Below are positions 54,195 through 62,160 of a DNA stretch of 64,000 nt, piece after piece. Each line of letters opens with the position of its first letter. Position 1 is the first letter of the stretch. The notes beneath the pieces were generated by a model. The model searched no databases. It had not been told where the DNA came from and saw nothing but the letters and a program-made list of their open reading frames with translations. The DNA is from Pyrinomonadaceae bacterium (GTDB lineage Bacteria > Acidobacteriota > Blastocatellia > Pyrinomonadales > Pyrinomonadaceae), in assembly GCA_030841105.1 (NCBI GenBank), contig JAVEDE010000022.1, forward strand, positions 1-64,000, given 5' to 3'. Both the position numbers and the translations under genes were made by a program.

Positions 54195-55571
54195 ATGGAG
54201 ACGCGGAAGATAATTCGAGACATGCGGAGCACGGCGCTCTCGAAGTGCGTCCTCGTCCTGTTCGGCGCGCTGTCGCTGCACGCGCTGGCAGGGCGCGCGG
54301 GGACGACACAGGTGCGTCCACCGGGGGGCGCGTCAATCAAAACGGATCGCGCGCGCCACCCGCCGCTCGGCGTGCCCAAGCTGCCGCGCGCCGGGGGCAA
54401 GTTCAACGACCCGGTTTTCGGGACGGAGATCATGCGCGTGACCGACGCGTTGACCGTCCCGAAGGGCGCGGGCACGAACTACAGCTACTGGGCGAGTTTC
54501 AATTCCGACAACACGTTGTTGCTCGTCATGGAGACGGGCGTGCAGCAGGGCGCGAGCATCTACCGATTCGACCCCGCCACCTTCACGCTCGGCGCGCGTC
54601 TGCCGCCCGTGCCCTACTCGCCGCCCGGCAACGTCCCTATCCGCCTCGACGACGCCTGCTGGTCGTCTGTCGATCCAGACATCCTCTACGTGCATCAAGA
54701 CCTCGGCACGAAGATTTACAAGTACAAAGTCTCGCGGCAGAGTTTCGCGCTCGTCGGCGACGTGGCGCGCGTGCTGCCGCGCGGGCAGAACATCCAGCAG
54801 ATGGGGATGGCGACCGACAACGACACCTTCTCTTTCACCAAACGCGGCGGCGCGCCCGCGTACAAGCAACTCGGCTACGCCGTCTACCGCGCGTCCACGA
54901 ACACCGTCCGCTTCCAGCACTCCGAAGTGATCAACGAGGTGCGCATAGACAAGTCCGGGCGTTACCTCTACGTGAACACCAACGAGACGGGGCCGGGCAA
55001 GTTCGAGGGGCGCGTCGTTGACACGGAGACGGGGGCGTTGACGAATTTGACGGACGACGCGCCCGACCACGCGCCCTCGCATTACGACGTAGGGACGGGC
55101 ACGGTGGTCGGCAACGGCAACTATCTCGTCGGCATCTCCGCGCGCAGCCTCTCGACGCCGCACAAGTTCGCGAAAATTTTCGACCTCTCGCCGGAGAAGA
55201 ACTACGGCGGCTTCCATCTCTCGATGCTGGCCGACAACGAGGGGTGGGTGCTCGTCAGTTTCTACACCGAGCACCCGAACGGCGTGATGCAGGGCGAGGT
55301 GGTACAGGTGGCGACGGACGGGACGGGGCGCGTGCGTCGCCTCTTTCATCATCAGGCCACGGGGACGGGTTACTACGACAGCCCACGCGCGAACATCTCG
55401 CGCGACGGCCGGTTCGTCGCGTTCAGTTCCAACTGGGGCGTGCAGAGCGACCGCCACGACATGTTCGTCGCGCGCATCGAATCCGCCCCGGCCGCCAACA
55501 CGAAGCCCACCGTCCCCACGCCGTCGCCCGCGTCGAGGCCGAGACGGGCGACGGCGCGCGGTGGCGAATAG
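54195..55571 (+). CDS. Secreted beta-propeller-like protein (first paralogue)
   Basis: From ATG 54195 the protein is 458 residues; ATG 54222 is an alternative nearer the signal peptide core (CVLVLFGALSLHALAGRAG). The mature part has repeated strands like the TolB/WD40 propeller family: FGTEIMRVTDAL, NSDNTLLLVME, DPDILYVHQD, RIDKSGRYLYVN, DDAPDHAPSHYDVGTG and ISRDGRFVAFSSNWG. The C-terminus is a Pro/Thr/Arg-rich tail with no sorting signal. The protein at 57341 shares the same domain throughout but adds more. A strong terminator at 55614 ends the transcript. Probably a surface or periplasmic protein; ligand unknown. Confidence 0.75.
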   Translation: METRKIIRDMRSTALSKCVLVLFGALSLHALAGRAGTTQVRPPGGASIKTDRARHPPLGVPKLPRAGGKFNDPVFGTEIMRVTDALTVPKGAGTNYSYWASFNSDNTLLLVMETGVQQGASIYRFDPATFTLGARLPPVPYSPPGNVPIRLDDACWSSVDPDILYVHQDLGTKIYKYKVSRQSFALVGDVARVLPRGQNIQQMGMATDNDTFSFTKRGGAPAYKQLGYAVYRASTNTVRFQHSEVINEVRIDKSGRYLYVNTNETGPGKFEGRVVDTETGALTNLTDDAPDHAPSHYDVGTGTVVGNGNYLVGISARSLSTPHKFAKIFDLSPEKNYGGFHLSMLADNEGWVLVSFYTEHPNGVMQGEVVQVATDGTGRVRRLFHHQATGTGYYDSPRANISRDGRFVAFSSNWGVQSDRHDMFVARIESAPAANTKPTVPTPSPASRPRRATARGGE

Positions 55572-55736: not shown

Positions 55737-56447
55737 TCAGGCCGCGCCGGTGTTCGCGTCGCGCCGGGAGTCTCTGCGCCGACGCCGCATGCGCTCGGCC
55801 ACGCCCGCCAGTCCCGTGCCGAGCAGCAGGAGCGTGGCCGGTTCGGGCACGGTGGCGGCGGAGGGTTGGAAGTTGTAGCTGATGTTGGTGAGGCCGTAAC
55901 CGATGTTCCCGTTGAGATTCATGAGCGCGAACGTGAGCGTCGCGATCCCTTGCCCGCTCAGAGTCATGCTGAATACGGGCGCGGCAAACGGGGGGACGGA
56001 GCCTTGTAGGATGCCGCTGAAGGTGAAGGCGGAAGTCAGGGTTAACGTGTCGGGGGCGCCGAAAGGGATGACGACGGGTTCGACTACAAAGTCGAAACTG
56101 CTGCCGTTGTACCAGACGTTCGTGTAAGTCGTGCCGTTGTACGTCGCGGTGTTGGTGAAGACGGTCGTGAAGCGCGTGATGTGGGAACTCGTCCCGAACG
56201 TTTGACCGGGCGCGCACGGCAGGCAACTCATGGCAGACCCGCTGTTCCCTAATTTCTCATCAGACCCGCCAGCGGAAATACCCGCCCCGGAGAAATTGAA
56301 GCTGTAACCCGGAAAAGCGTTGAGGACGGGGTTTCGATGAGACAGAGTGCCGCTCGTGATAACGACGTGCTCGGCGCGCGCTTCGGAAGCGAGGAAAAGA
56401 GCGGTGAACAGCAGTAGGAGGGGCAGCGCGCGGGCTGGATTTCGCAT
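55737..56447 (-). CDS. PEP-CTERM sorting domain protein
   Basis: The start is the ATG at 56447 (minus strand), seven bases after GGAAG; in-frame codons further upstream are not supported. The 236-residue protein has a signal peptide (RNPARALPLLLLFTALFLAS), a beta-rich middle with several Asn-Gly-Thr stretches and two Cys in CLPCAPG, and a C-terminal sorting signal: VPEP at 200-203, a hydrophobic span (TLLLLGTGLAGVA) and an Arg cluster. A tail of 11 residues follows the Arg cluster, longer than usual. It is the likely substrate of the exosortase at 60062. It is cut after the PEP motif in the known system. Function of the mature protein unknown. Confidence 0.88.
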   Translation of the reverse strand: MRNPARALPLLLLFTALFLASEARAEHVVITSGTLSHRNPVLNAFPGYSFNFSGAGISAGGSDEKLGNSGSAMSCLPCAPGQTFGTSSHITRFTTVFTNTATYNGTTYTNVWYNGSSFDFVVEPVVIPFGAPDTLTLTSAFTFSGILQGSVPPFAAPVFSMTLSGQGIATLTFALMNLNGNIGYGLTNISYNFQPSAATVPEPATLLLLGTGLAGVAERMRRRRRDSRRDANTGAA

Positions 56448-56660: not shown

Positions 56661-56689
56661 TTGACAAGCATTGATAAATTCTGTTTAAT
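56661..56689 (+). promoter_or_regulatory. Sigma-70-like promoter of the riboswitch leader
   Basis: A perfect TTGACA at 56661-56666 is followed after 17 bases by TTTAAT at 56684-56689 (five of six to consensus), in an AT-rich island. Transcription would start near 56696 and run into the two c-di-GMP aptamers and the gene at 57341. Confidence 0.7.
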
Positions 56690-56756
56690 GAATTGTCTGT
56701 TGTGCGCGTCCGTCAGCGACGAGTGCGACATTGTTCTTTCAGGTAGAGATTGCACA

Positions 56757-56876
56757 CGATAATGGCAAACTTGTCGCGAGGCGAGGGCGCAAAGCCGTGA
56801 GTCTCTCCGGCGCGAAGCAGGGCGTTGAATTTCGACGCGGGCGCGCAGTTGAGATTGTCTGGTTGCCGAAGGCGAT
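56757..56876 (+). promoter_or_regulatory. c-di-GMP-I (GEMM-I) riboswitch aptamer 1
   Basis: Conserved parts occur in order: GGCAAAC (56764-56770), a six-base stem capped by the GNRA tetraloop GCGA, GCAAAGCC (56789-56796), a longer variable arm closed by GTCTC/GAGAT with an inner hairpin GCGTTGA-TCGACGC, and the 3' motif GGTTGCCGAAG (56861-56871). This is the layout of GEMM-I, which binds cyclic di-GMP. It lies about 60 bases into the transcript from the promoter at 56661. No terminator with U-run was seen right after it. Confidence 0.88.
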
Positions 56877-57233
56877 CCGAAGAAAGCCGTGACTTCGTGT
56901 TTCTTTGTGAACCAGACCGCCCCGGCGGTTCACACGCTTCGGCGGAACTTGTTTCTTCACAGCTCTCCGCCGCCGGAGGCTCAAGTTCTCCCGCCAAAGG
57001 TTCGAGGTCGCGGCGGAATTATCCGCGTGCAGTTCTTGTCGTTTTATAATTCCTTTTCTTCCGTCCGCTAATTCTTCAGCTTCAGACGTTCGCGTCAAAT
57101 CACGCTTTTATCTTCCGAGTTCGAGCAGGCGAGTTTGAGTCGCTTCAGACTTGAACGGCTGCGACTGCCTCCGGCTAGTCGTGTCGCCGCCGTCATCGCA
57201 GTCGCCTGCCTCCTCTCCCGTCAAGCACAGCAA

Positions 57234-57334
57234 TCACCGAATTAAAGGCACCCCCGTAGTGATGCGGGTTCGCAAAGCCAGGAGTCTCGTCAAGGTCTGC
57301 AAGGCCGCGAGATTGTCCGGTTGCCGAAGTGAGG
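57234..57334 (+). promoter_or_regulatory. c-di-GMP-I (GEMM-I) riboswitch aptamer 2, next to the ribosome site
   Basis: GGCA (57247-57250), a stem CCCGTA/TGCGGG with GNRA loop GTGA, CGCAAAGCC (57271-57279), an arm closed by GTCTCG/CGAGAT, and GGTTGCCGAAG (57319-57329) follow the GEMM-I order. The usual GGCAAAC is GGCACCC here, so the first joining part is less conserved than in aptamer 1. TCAC (57234-57237) could pair with GTGA (57329-57332), and that strand runs into GAGG (57331-57334), the ribosome site of the gene at 57341. Translation control is therefore likely. Confidence 0.75.
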
Positions 57335-57340
57335 CTCAAG

Positions 57341-59836
57341 ATGAATAACCCCCGGGTGTTCACGCAACAATCCGTCCGCCTACTTTTACCTCAACTCAAA
57401 TTCGCACTCGTCCTCGCGCTCGCGCTCTTCGCGTCGGGCAGCGCGGCGGCGACGCACGCGCAGACGCCCGGCGAAATCAAGACCGACCTCGGCCTGTACA
57501 CCCCGTCGGCCGTGCCGTCGTTGCCTGCGGCGGGCGGCAAGTTGAGCGACCCGATCTTCGGGACGGAGATCATGCGCGTGACGGACGGACGCGACGGCAC
57601 GGGCGCGGGCACGTCCTACTCTTACTGGCCGACCTTCAACGCCGACAACACGCGCGTGCTCGTGATGGGCGCGGGCGGCGAGGCCGGAATCGCCATCTAC
57701 GACTTCGACCCGGCGAGCTTCCGCCTCGGCGCGAAGCACCAACTCCCGCTGCTCAACGGCGGCTACCCGTTCACCTACGATCTGACGTGGAGCCACAACG
57801 AGCCGGACATCCTCTACGGCCACATGGGAGCGGCGCTCTGGCGTTACAACGCGCGCAAGGGCGAGTACGCGCTTGCCTTCGACCTCGCCTCGCGCCTGCC
57901 CGCCGGATACTATTTTGCGCAGGGGAGTTTGAGCGCGGACGACGACGTGTTCGCCTGCACCTTGATGCAGTCGGGCACGTGGACTGTGGTCGGCTACATG
58001 GCCTACCGCCGTTCGACCGACACGATCCTCTACCGCTCAAGCGACGACCACAACGAAGTCAGAATTGACAAGTCGGGTCGCTACCTCTTCGTCAACACGA
58101 ACGATCAGGGCGTCGGGAAGATCGAAGTTCGCATCGTTGATCTGGCGACGGGACAATCCACGGGGTTAACGGACGACGCGCCGGATCACGCGCCGTCGCA
58201 CTACGACGTGGGTACGGGCACGGCCGTCGGCAACGGCAACTATCTCGTCGGCATCTCGTCGCGCAACCTCTCGACGCCGCGCAGCTACACGAAAATTCTA
58301 GACCTCTCCGCGCAGGGCAACTACGGCGGCTTTCACCTCTCCATGTTGGCCGACAACGAGGAGTGGTCGCTCGTCAGTTTCTACACGCCGCATTTGAACG
58401 GCGTGATGCAAGGTGAAGTCGTGCAGGTCTCGACGGACGGGACGGGGCGCGTGCGTCGCCTGTTTCATCATCAGGCGATAGTGGCGAGCTACTACGACAG
58501 CCCGCGCGCGAACATCTCGCGCGACGGCCGGTTCGTCGCCTTCACGTCGAACTGGGGCGTGGCGGGCGGTCGTCACGACATGTTCATCGCGCGCATCAAC
58601 CCCGCGCCGTCTTCGTCCGCGACTCCCACGCCGACGCCCACGCCGACCGCAACTCCGACTCCTAATCCGACTGCGACTCCGACGCCGACGCCCACGCCGA
58701 CGCCGCTCAACGCGCCCGCGCTCGTCGCGGCAGCGCGCGCCTCGGCCGCCACGCTCGCCGGTGCGCCGACAGTCTCGGACGCAGAGATCAACGTCTTGGA
58801 GAGCAAGATCGAGGCGGCTTACGCGGCCTACGCCAGAGAGTCAGGCCAGTTCTCAGCGTCCGCGCAGATTGACGGCGGCCTGCGCATCTCGCTCTATTTT
58901 TCGCGCGCCTCGGAAGCGTTGGCGGCGGCGGGCGCGCTGCCCTCCGGCGTGCAGAACCGCTTGCAGATCACGGCCTCGCGTCTGGCGCAGGTGAGCAACT
59001 TGATGCTCCCGTCCGCAGGCAGCGCGCCCGGCAGTTTCGCGCACGCGCCCTCGGCGGCAACCGACCTCGCCTTCATCGGCGCGGCCAACACCTTTTCGAG
59101 CGCGAGCATGTCGCCCGTGCTCGCGCCCCAGAGTCTCGGCACGATCACGGGCGACGCCGCGCAGAGTCCACTGGCGCGCACGAGCGTCGCCGCCGACAGA
59201 AGCGGCAACAACCCGCTGCCCTTTGAACTCGCGGGCGCAAGCGTCTCGGTGGGCGGGCGTGCCGCGCCGCTCATCTACGTGTCGCCCGCGCGCATCTCGT
59301 TCCTCGTCCCGCAGGGGTTGCCGCAGGGCGAACTGGAAGTGCTCGTCACTTCGCAGGACGGTTACGTCTCGCGCGGCACAATCGTCGTCAACGCCGTCGC
59401 GCCCGCCCTCTTCACCGCCGACGCGAGCGGCGCGGGGAACGCGCTCTCCATGAACGGCAGCGAACCGGGCGCGAACTCCTACGACGTGCAATCGCCGCAC
59501 GCGCTCAGCACGGACAAACGCACGCGCGTCTCGCTGTTCGCCACCGGCATGAGCGCGGGCGCGGCCAACATCTACCCGGCCAACGACGTGCGTGCGGACG
59601 ACGGCCGGATCATCATCAACGTCGCAGAGGCGTTGACGGTCGAAGCGCGCACGCGCGACGGGCGGCTCTATCACCTGCCCGTAGAGTACGCGGGCGCGAT
59701 GCTCGACGGGCGGCTGCCCGGCCTTGAGCAAGTCAACGTCCTGCTCCACCCCGAACTGCGCGGCGCAGGTTTAGTTGACCTGACCATCGTCGTCGGCGGC
59801 CAGCGCAGCAACACCGCCACGATCAATATCAAGTAA
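57341..59836 (+). CDS. Secreted propeller-like protein with Thr-Pro linker and TIGR03437-type C-terminal domain
   Basis: ATG 57341 is preferred over GTG 57329, because GAGG lies six bases before it and 57329 is inside the riboswitch. The 831-residue protein has a signal peptide (about 20-44, ending ATHAQ), a propeller-like domain (45-420) paralogous to the protein at 54195, a Thr-Pro repeat linker (about 427-460), a helical part (465-570), and a C-terminal module with PLPFELAGASVSVGGRAAPL, YVSPARISFLVPQGLPQGE and VVNAVAPALFTAD. The last is the TIGR03437 pattern of acidobacterial exported proteins. Expression is probably under c-di-GMP control through two leader aptamers. Likely a surface adhesion or matrix protein; that is inference. 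Confidence 0.82.
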   Translation: MNNPRVFTQQSVRLLLPQLKFALVLALALFASGSAAATHAQTPGEIKTDLGLYTPSAVPSLPAAGGKLSDPIFGTEIMRVTDGRDGTGAGTSYSYWPTFNADNTRVLVMGAGGEAGIAIYDFDPASFRLGAKHQLPLLNGGYPFTYDLTWSHNEPDILYGHMGAALWRYNARKGEYALAFDLASRLPAGYYFAQGSLSADDDVFACTLMQSGTWTVVGYMAYRRSTDTILYRSSDDHNEVRIDKSGRYLFVNTNDQGVGKIEVRIVDLATGQSTGLTDDAPDHAPSHYDVGTGTAVGNGNYLVGISSRNLSTPRSYTKILDLSAQGNYGGFHLSMLADNEEWSLVSFYTPHLNGVMQGEVVQVSTDGTGRVRRLFHHQAIVASYYDSPRANISRDGRFVAFTSNWGVAGGRHDMFIARINPAPSSSATPTPTPTPTATPTPNPTATPTPTPTPTPLNAPALVAAARASAATLAGAPTVSDAEINVLESKIEAAYAAYARESGQFSASAQIDGGLRISLYFSRASEALAAAGALPSGVQNRLQITASRLAQVSNLMLPSAGSAPGSFAHAPSAATDLAFIGAANTFSSASMSPVLAPQSLGTITGDAAQSPLARTSVAADRSGNNPLPFELAGASVSVGGRAAPLIYVSPARISFLVPQGLPQGELEVLVTSQDGYVSRGTIVVNAVAPALFTADASGAGNALSMNGSEPGANSYDVQSPHALSTDKRTRVSLFATGMSAGAANIYPANDVRADDGRIIINVAEALTVEARTRDGRLYHLPVEYAGAMLDGRLPGLEQVNVLLHPELRGAGLVDLTIVVGGQRSNTATINIK

Positions 59837-60061: not shown

Positions 60062-61129
60062 ATGACAGCCTTAACAGTCCCCCAACTCTGGAAGCCGGTG
60101 GCCGTCGCCGCCGCCGTCCTCTTCGTCTACGCGACGGTGCTGGTGAAACTCGGCGGGCAGTGGTGGACTGACGAAAACTACTCGCACGGGCTGCTCATCC
60201 CGTTCATCATCGGCTACATCCTGTGGAGCGAGCGCGCGAGATTAGAGGGCACGCCGCGGCGGCCTTCGCTCGCATGGGGCGGCGCGCTCGTAGTCGGCGC
60301 GCTCCTGATGTTGTGGGCGGGGACGGCGGGCGCGGAACTCTTCATGCAGCGCACGTCGCTCGTCGTGATGCTGGCGGGCATCGTCGTCTATTTCTGGGGC
60401 TGGCACATCCTGCGGCTCACGCTCGTCCCGCTGCTTTTGCTCGCGCTGGCGATCCCGATCCCGGCGATCATCTTCAACCAGATCGCATTCCCCTTACAGT
60501 TGTTCGCGTCGCGCTGCGCCGTGTGGGCGATGCGCGCCTTCGACATCCCGGTCTTGCGGCAGGGGAACGTCATCGAGTTGATGCCGCTCAATTCGGCCGT
60601 CACGAAGAAACTCGAAGTGGTCGAAGCCTGTAGCGGCATCCGTTCGCTGATGACGTTGATGACGCTCGCCGTCGTCTTCGCCTACTTCACGCACCCGCGC
60701 GGCAAGGGGCAGCAGGGCGGGGGCTTGCGTGCGAGTTTGAAGCGTTACGGCACGTGGCGTTCGGCCATCCTCGTGCTCTCGGCCGTGCCCATCGCGATCA
60801 TCACGAACGCGGGGCGCGTGAGCGGCACGGGCATCCTCGCGCGCTACTACGGGACGGAAGTAGCCGACGGTTTCTTCCACGAGTTCTCCGGCTGGGTCGT
60901 CTACATCGCCGCGTTCATGCTCCTCTTTGCGCTCGGCTGGGTGCTCGACAAGTTCGGCGGGCGCGGGAAGACACGGCCGCCCAAAACTCGGCAGGCGCAA
61001 GCGGCGACCACAGACCCGGCGCGCACCACACCGGACGAGACGGGCGATGCGCCGCTCGTCGGCGCGACAAACGCGACTGCCGCGACGGCAACCATGTCTC
61101 TGCGCGAACGCGGCGCGGACGGATCGTAA
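60062..61129 (+). CDS. xrt: Exosortase
   Basis: The 355-residue membrane protein has about eight spans and the exosortase catalytic set: Cys190 in VVEACSGIRSL, Arg252 in NAGRVSG and His273 in FFHEFSGWVVY. NYSHGLLIPFIIGYILW near residue 40 is another family hallmark. It is a membrane-bound transpeptidase-like enzyme that recognises PEP-CTERM tails and removes them at the periplasmic face. The probable substrate is at 55737. The C-terminal 70 residues are Ala/Thr-rich and cytoplasmic. The downstream gene at 61510 encodes EpsI as a separate protein. Hairpin F and a second short hairpin (59985-60011) lie upstream. Confidence 0.93.
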   Translation: MTALTVPQLWKPVAVAAAVLFVYATVLVKLGGQWWTDENYSHGLLIPFIIGYILWSERARLEGTPRRPSLAWGGALVVGALLMLWAGTAGAELFMQRTSLVVMLAGIVVYFWGWHILRLTLVPLLLLALAIPIPAIIFNQIAFPLQLFASRCAVWAMRAFDIPVLRQGNVIELMPLNSAVTKKLEVVEACSGIRSLMTLMTLAVVFAYFTHPRGKGQQGGGLRASLKRYGTWRSAILVLSAVPIAIITNAGRVSGTGILARYYGTEVADGFFHEFSGWVVYIAAFMLLFALGWVLDKFGGRGKTRPPKTRQAQAATTDPARTTPDETGDAPLVGATNATAATATMSLRERGADGS

Positions 61130-61509: not shown

Positions 61510-62160
61510 ATGAGATCGAAGAAGTGGCATTTCTGGGCGTTGCTGTTGCTCCTGCTGGCGGGCGGGTCGGTGGTCAATTTGTGGGAGCACATCGGCGAGG
61601 CGAGCGTCGTCAGGCGCGAGTTGAAAGAGTTTCCGACGCAGGTCGGCCGTTGGCAACAGCGCGGCGCGGACACGCGTTTCGACGCGCAGACTGAAAGCGT
61701 CCTGCGCGCCGACGATTACCTCGCGCGCGATTACGCGTTGCCCGACGGCCGCTTCGCCAACTTCTACGTCGGCTACTACGCCACGCAGCGCAACGGCGCG
61801 ACCTATCACAGCCCGCTCAACTGCCTGCCCGGCGCGGGCTGGACGCTGAACGAACCGGCCGCCATCCAAATCACGCCCGCCGACGGCGGCCAGCCCTTCG
61901 AGGCCAACCGCTACATCATCCAGAACGGCGACGCGCGCCAGTTGCTCATCTACTGGTATCAGGGGCGCGGACGCGCCGTGGCGAGCGAGTACTGGGGGAA
62001 GATTTACACGGTCGTTGACAGCGTCAAGCGCAGGCGTTCGGACGGCGCGATGGTGCGCGTGATCGTGCCGATTCAGAAGTCGGAGGAGGACGCGCTCGCC
62101 CTCGCTTCGGAACTCGCGGCGCAGGCCGCGCCCTCGCTCCCGACGTTCGTCCCGAACTAA
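61510..62160 (+). CDS. epsI: EpsI-type exosortase-associated protein
   Basis: The 216-residue protein has one N-terminal span (about 7-23), then LKEFPTQVGRWQ, a segment typical of EpsI, the strongly conserved YHSPLNCLPGAGW (the Cys near residue 105) and IYWYQGRGRAVASEYWGKIY. EpsI occurs as a C-terminal fusion to some exosortases or as a separate gene, as here, and is needed for exopolysaccharide in Methylobacillus. It faces the periplasm. Its position 380 bases after exosortase, with the coiled-coil gene between, is consistent with one operon. Confidence 0.9.
   Translation: MRSKKWHFWALLLLLLAGGSVVNLWEHIGEASVVRRELKEFPTQVGRWQQRGADTRFDAQTESVLRADDYLARDYALPDGRFANFYVGYYATQRNGATYHSPLNCLPGAGWTLNEPAAIQITPADGGQPFEANRYIIQNGDARQLLIYWYQGRGRAVASEYWGKIYTVVDSVKRRRSDGAMVRVIVPIQKSEEDALALASELAAQAAPSLPTFVPN

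Follow-up and report, generated by a model that had tools for sequence, protein, structure and literature searches.

Two c-di-GMP-I (GEMM-I) riboswitch aptamers lie in series ahead of a single gene for a large secreted protein in a soil acidobacterium of the family Pyrinomonadaceae, and this locus raises the question of what each of them does. The window scanned here is a 64 kb stretch (64,000 nt) of a 5.07 Mb genome assembly. The genes concerned are the following.

55737-56447, minus strand: divergent PEP-CTERM protein, an exosortase substrate (PF07589, 28.1 bits; TIGR02595)
57341-59836, plus strand: controlled gene, encoding a protein of 831 aa with a signal-peptide-like N-terminus and a Solibacter C-terminal domain (TIGR03437, 107 bits)
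60062-61129, plus strand: exosortase (profile matches to PF09721 and TIGR02602)
61510-62160, plus strand: EpsI / DUF3485 exosortase-associated protein

An earlier note on this DNA had placed one secreted protein, within an exosortase locus, downstream of the aptamers. The Solibacter C-terminal domain agrees with the first of these assignments and the exosortase/EpsI pair adjoining the controlled gene with the second. A PEP-CTERM gene is found, divergent or close by, beside the same kind of leader in several genomes (55737-56447 in the window; loci L033, L036 and L041). The riboswitch-controlled protein has, for its propeller-like N-terminal part, a paralogue encoded directly upstream on the same strand (54213-55571); this paralogue has no Rfam-detectable riboswitch.

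The region ahead of the controlled gene is best explained as an untranslated leader of ~650 nt that heads this secreted-protein/exosortase locus. Its elements, with the two aptamers called A1 and A2, are listed below.

56661-56689, plus strand: sigma-70-type promoter TTGACA-N17-TTTAAT (sequence; conserved in related leaders)
56698-56730, plus strand: hairpin directly before boxA, in a boxB-like position (predicted fold, z scores)
56732-56739, plus strand: boxA-like element TGTTCTTT (GNTCTTT conserved before A1; same core in rRNA leaders)
56748-56753, plus strand: 5' strand of the A1 closing stem P1, GAUUGC (covariation over 25 sequences)
56754-56870, plus strand: A1, c-di-GMP-I aptamer of the promoter-proximal type (Rfam RF01051, 51.9 bits, E 2.9e-7)
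56872-56877, plus strand: 3' strand of the A1 closing stem P1, GCGAUC (covariation; duplex stronger than shuffled in 29/29)
56871-57236, plus strand: non-coding linker with no intrinsic terminator and a mild excess of C over G
57234-57239, plus strand: 5' strand of the A2 closing stem P1, UCAC-CG (sequence; flank pairing)
57237-57328, plus strand: A2, c-di-GMP-I aptamer of the start-codon-proximal type (Rfam RF01051, 50.4 bits, E 7e-7)
57329-57334, plus strand: GUGAGG, at once the 3' strand of A2 P1 and the Shine-Dalgarno (SD) site, 12 nt before the ATG

A1 and A2 are the only Rfam matches in the window, and the covariance check bears out both aptamers proposed earlier, with scores above the RF01051 gathering score of 35 bits. 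They are separated by 366 nt (483 nt from start to start), and not by the 460 first given. Both alignments retain the pocket residues, namely the G of GGCA, the A of GCAAAG and the C of CCGAA, which we take to be G20, A47 and C92 of the Vc2 structure. GG[CT]A/C and CCGAA are present in 83 of 85 relatives. The 3',3'-cGAMP (GEMM-Ib) riboswitch has the same fold, is found by the same covariance model and differs by an A at position 20; this specificity was ruled out by the G at that position in both aptamers (GGCA). The c-di-GMP-type pocket therefore supports c-di-GMP as the predicted ligand of A1 and A2. In another family of the class, a c-di-GMP-I match (L015, G040:C131:13875-14005) carries GAGCA at the specificity position, where A replaces G as in cGAMP-type aptamers. 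The whole genome contains one further c-di-GMP-I aptamer, ~340 nt before pilM (recognised from its sequence). This aptamer, ahead of a type IV pilus gene, is of a third kind (L002 1501-1596 and relatives); in many genomes of the family, aptamers of that kind have ahead of them a conserved TTTGAAACTC that resembles the tail of the rRNA boxA.

The comparison covered 119 Pyrinomonadaceae genomes, 79 of which have c-di-GMP-I aptamers. It yielded 30 A1-type leaders and 21 tandem pairs; the pairs are spread over ~19 genomes and 11 or more genera, always in the same order. All A1-type matches recognised in the collection scan belong, by organism name, to Pyrinomonadaceae or other Acidobacteria. The genes that follow the tandem leaders vary: some encode beta-helix-like proteins or large secreted proteins of other kinds, of which several resemble the window protein in their C-terminus, and three leaders precede genes for small CAP-type secreted proteins (fold names read from sequence, except for the window protein). 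The leader is thus a regulatory cassette and more than the 5' end of a single gene family. In 9 loci, the window among them, an exosortase gene follows in the same direction, usually with EpsI. The description of the aptamers as tandem copies holds for their arrangement in series; they are, however, two distinct types and not copies of one.

The promoter is exactly as had been claimed, with TTGACA at 56661-56666, a 17 nt spacer and TTTAAT at 56684-56689, and TTGAC[AG]-N17/18-KTWAAT occupies the same place in ~23 of 28 related leaders. The combined pattern TTGACA-N18-TWAAT-N20-50-TCTTT has a single match in the 5.07 Mb genome, in this very leader, and 0 matches in the reversed control. The gap between the aptamers, said to hold no supported gene, indeed shows none: linkers range from 143 to 380 nt across the tandem leaders, and no ATG reading frame with an SD site was found in the 21 examined. 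Terminator-like sites numbered 5 in 30 leaders against 3.0 expected by shuffling, with none in the window. Action by intrinsic termination was rejected, there being no clear excess of hairpin plus U-run over shuffled sequence. Any Rho-utilisation bias of the linkers is mild: the excess of C is slightly larger there than in the coding sequence downstream (skew 0.16 against 0.11).

The two types also differ in what surrounds them. A2-type aptamers end in CCGAA, with GTGAGG directly next in nearly all and the start codon a few nt further on. GUGAGG pairs with the UCAC preceding A2, in the window as a short stem of 4 pairs plus a mismatch. The 5' and 3' flanks of A2-type aptamers pair better than shuffled sequences in 19 of 23 cases, yet not above cross-pairing between genomes, and covariation of the 5' strand of P1 is not beyond chance. 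No excess over cross-pairing is expected, because one strand of this stem is frozen as an SD site. The pairing of P1 that holds the SD is likely. Ligand binding stabilises P1 in the c-di-GMP-I class. Since the SD is the 3' strand of P1, c-di-GMP on A2 should close the ribosome site, and A2 is predicted to be an SD-masking aptamer that switches translation OFF.

The closing stem of the A1 type is GAUUGC-ACA-CG / CG-AAG-GCGAUC. Among 25 sequences 93.3% of its cells are paired and 4 pairs have changed on both sides, while slid controls reach at most 50%. Neither a start codon nor an SD site nor a terminator was found near A1. A1 also occurs without A2, in leaders where an ordinary start site follows some 150-450 nt further on. 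For these reasons its output must reach further, and we infer that it acts during elongation (on antitermination, Rho access or the stability of the RNA). The search for an alternative structure of A1 yielded none: a hairpin downstream of it (GAAGGC..GCC..CUUC), which could not form together with P1, seemed convincing on inspection of several sequences and was rejected on its mean z of -0.25 over 29 leaders.

The most constant companion of A1 is the motif GNTCTTT, found 18-27 nt upstream of it in 30/30 A1-type leaders, nine of which have no A2 over the search threshold. The same motif occurs in 2/22 A2-type leaders, 0/33 other c-di-GMP-I leaders and 1/19 TPP leaders of the same genomes, against a background in random windows of the same loci of 0.36% (16-nt windows) or 4% (115-nt windows). 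The positions around it are nearly random (0-0.55 bit each over 28 non-redundant leaders) while the motif is invariant, which argues that it is held by selection and not by mere recent common descent. In most leaders the motif follows a hairpin at a distance of 2-4 nt. These hairpins are unrelated in sequence (0-0.5 bit per position) and have a mean z of -2.1 over 29 leaders; they are weak in a few, and in a near-identical sister of the window leader the predicted energy is -15.3 kcal/mol.

The same order of elements is known from rRNA operons. No 16S rRNA was found in the source assembly, and other family members were used for the comparison. Their rRNA leaders carry a promoter, a hairpin and (T/C)GATCTTTGAAAACTAG, with the core GATCTTT; TGATCTTTGAAAACTAG and CGATCTTTGAAAACTAG have the boxA core common to A1-type leaders, and two rRNA leaders carry TGATGTTTGAAAAC instead. 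On these sequence grounds GNTCTTT before A1 is a boxA, and hence a putative NusB/S10 site. Sequestration of boxA by a downstream GAAAG after A1 was also considered and rejected, the partner sites varying without compensation as judged by eye. Among cobalamin riboswitch leaders from the same bacterial class (L190 G000:C114:11765-11989; L168-L197), 19/30 carry GNTCTTT no more than 100 nt before the match or at its start, against a background of 4%.

The reading that we favour, with moderate confidence, combines a boxA antitermination leader with an A1 acting on elongation and an A2 masking the SD. A leader of this length, untranslated and without evident intrinsic terminators, would be exposed to Rho; genes for NusB (PF01029) and Rho (PF07497) are both present in the genome, over cut-off. 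Transcription would start just after the promoter, and the nascent RNA would expose the hairpin and boxA and so recruit NusB/S10, which would make RNA polymerase resistant to Rho across the long non-coding leader. A1 would fold right behind boxA and act on elongation. At the far end, binding of c-di-GMP to A2 would hide the SD in P1 and turn translation OFF. A1 and A2 probably act at two different steps, because they are differently built, the one with boxA and the other with the SD in its stem; the earlier note had not seen this. A more specific version, in which c-di-GMP on A1 sets NusB/S10 loading and Rho resistance of the whole transcript and A2 separately sets translation of the first gene, appears unlikely to us; A1 folds within about a dozen nt of boxA.

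A triple arrangement was observed in another genome (G118:C198, L088 3000-5000, minus strand). A1 with boxA comes first, an SD-bearing aptamer then precedes a small ORF (~127 aa) and a third, also SD-bearing, precedes a beta-helix-like gene; a boxA-like TTCTTT stands before the second and third aptamers as well. One A1 heading the transcript and one SD-bearing aptamer per gene would suit a division of labour.

The pair might instead be a plain c-di-GMP-I doublet, acting serially for a steeper, more digital response, with GNTCTTT incidental. The 347 doublets and 12 triplets reported for this class have been read in this way (PMC9481103), and the presence of one transcript, one ligand and no gene between the aptamers agrees with it. 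The earlier suggestion that both aptamers serve the same gene stands to the extent that they share one transcript ahead of one gene; a simple sharpening of one response is not established, A1 and A2 being built differently. Each type has constant flanks and a position of its own, boxA never varies among the A1-type leaders amid randomised sequence, and A1 has neither a terminator nor a ribosome binding site as output, so that a plain doublet is possible but doubtful. A second alternative, that the first aptamer is a relic, rests on the non-coding linker and on the lack of an evident expression platform for A1: a single riboswitch would have been duplicated and the first gene lost, leaving only A2 functional. 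This is highly improbable given the preservation of A1, its P1, boxA and the promoter over at least 11 genera, and the existence of A1-type leaders without A2.

The sign of the boxA effect is a separate matter. In E. coli the boxA of the suhB leader promotes repression and not antitermination (PMC5725501), so the effect could be opposite here. A Nus complex at boxA would then lower expression, as leader boxA elements do for suhB and for a toxin gene of Citrobacter (PMC5725501), and c-di-GMP on A1 would relieve or reinforce this. In those cases, however, the search for boxA was made near the start of the gene, where it was also found (PMC5725501), whereas the present element precedes its gene by ~600 nt and, like boxA in rRNA leaders, stands near the promoter with a hairpin before it. 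We consider repression through boxA improbable and retain the antitermination leader, with its two differently built aptamers, as the preferred reading.

Comparison with known systems indicates known parts in a new combination. The tandem arrangement alone is not new, c-di-GMP-I aptamers being the most frequent riboswitch doublets (PMC9481103). The present pair resembles those doublets in passing the Rfam score, in its c-di-GMP pocket residues and in sharing one transcript; it differs in consisting of two dissimilar, position-specific types, one with boxA and one with the SD in P1, and in having no intrinsic terminators. With the rrn antitermination leader (boxB-boxA, bound by the NusB/S10/NusA/NusG/SuhB complex) it shares the order promoter, hairpin, boxA and the GATCTTT core. 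Here, however, these elements stand ahead of riboswitches and a secreted-protein gene, and the sequence after TCTTT is unlike the rRNA GAAAACTAG. A boxA or Nus antitermination complex outside rRNA operons has precedents in the mRNA leaders of suhB and a ParE-like toxin gene (PMC5725501) and in CRISPR arrays (mentioned in PMC12691694). No riboswitch is described in these cases; the paper on mRNA leaders (PMC5725501) does not mention riboswitches, and the suhB boxA represses translation. A search of open-access papers by title and abstract found no boxA-riboswitch leader. In the usual view a riboswitch exerts its control at a single place, either a terminator or a ribosome site. With a conserved boxA of the rRNA type directly before one c-di-GMP aptamer and another aptamer on the ribosome site, the leader would be a two-step switch. 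It would also connect the sensing of a second messenger with Nus-dependent antitermination, and the open-access literature searched gave no example of such a connection. The cobalamin leaders suggest that boxA guards long riboswitch leaders more generally in this little-studied group, and the control by c-di-GMP of exosortase and surface-protein loci in acidobacteria becomes directly testable.
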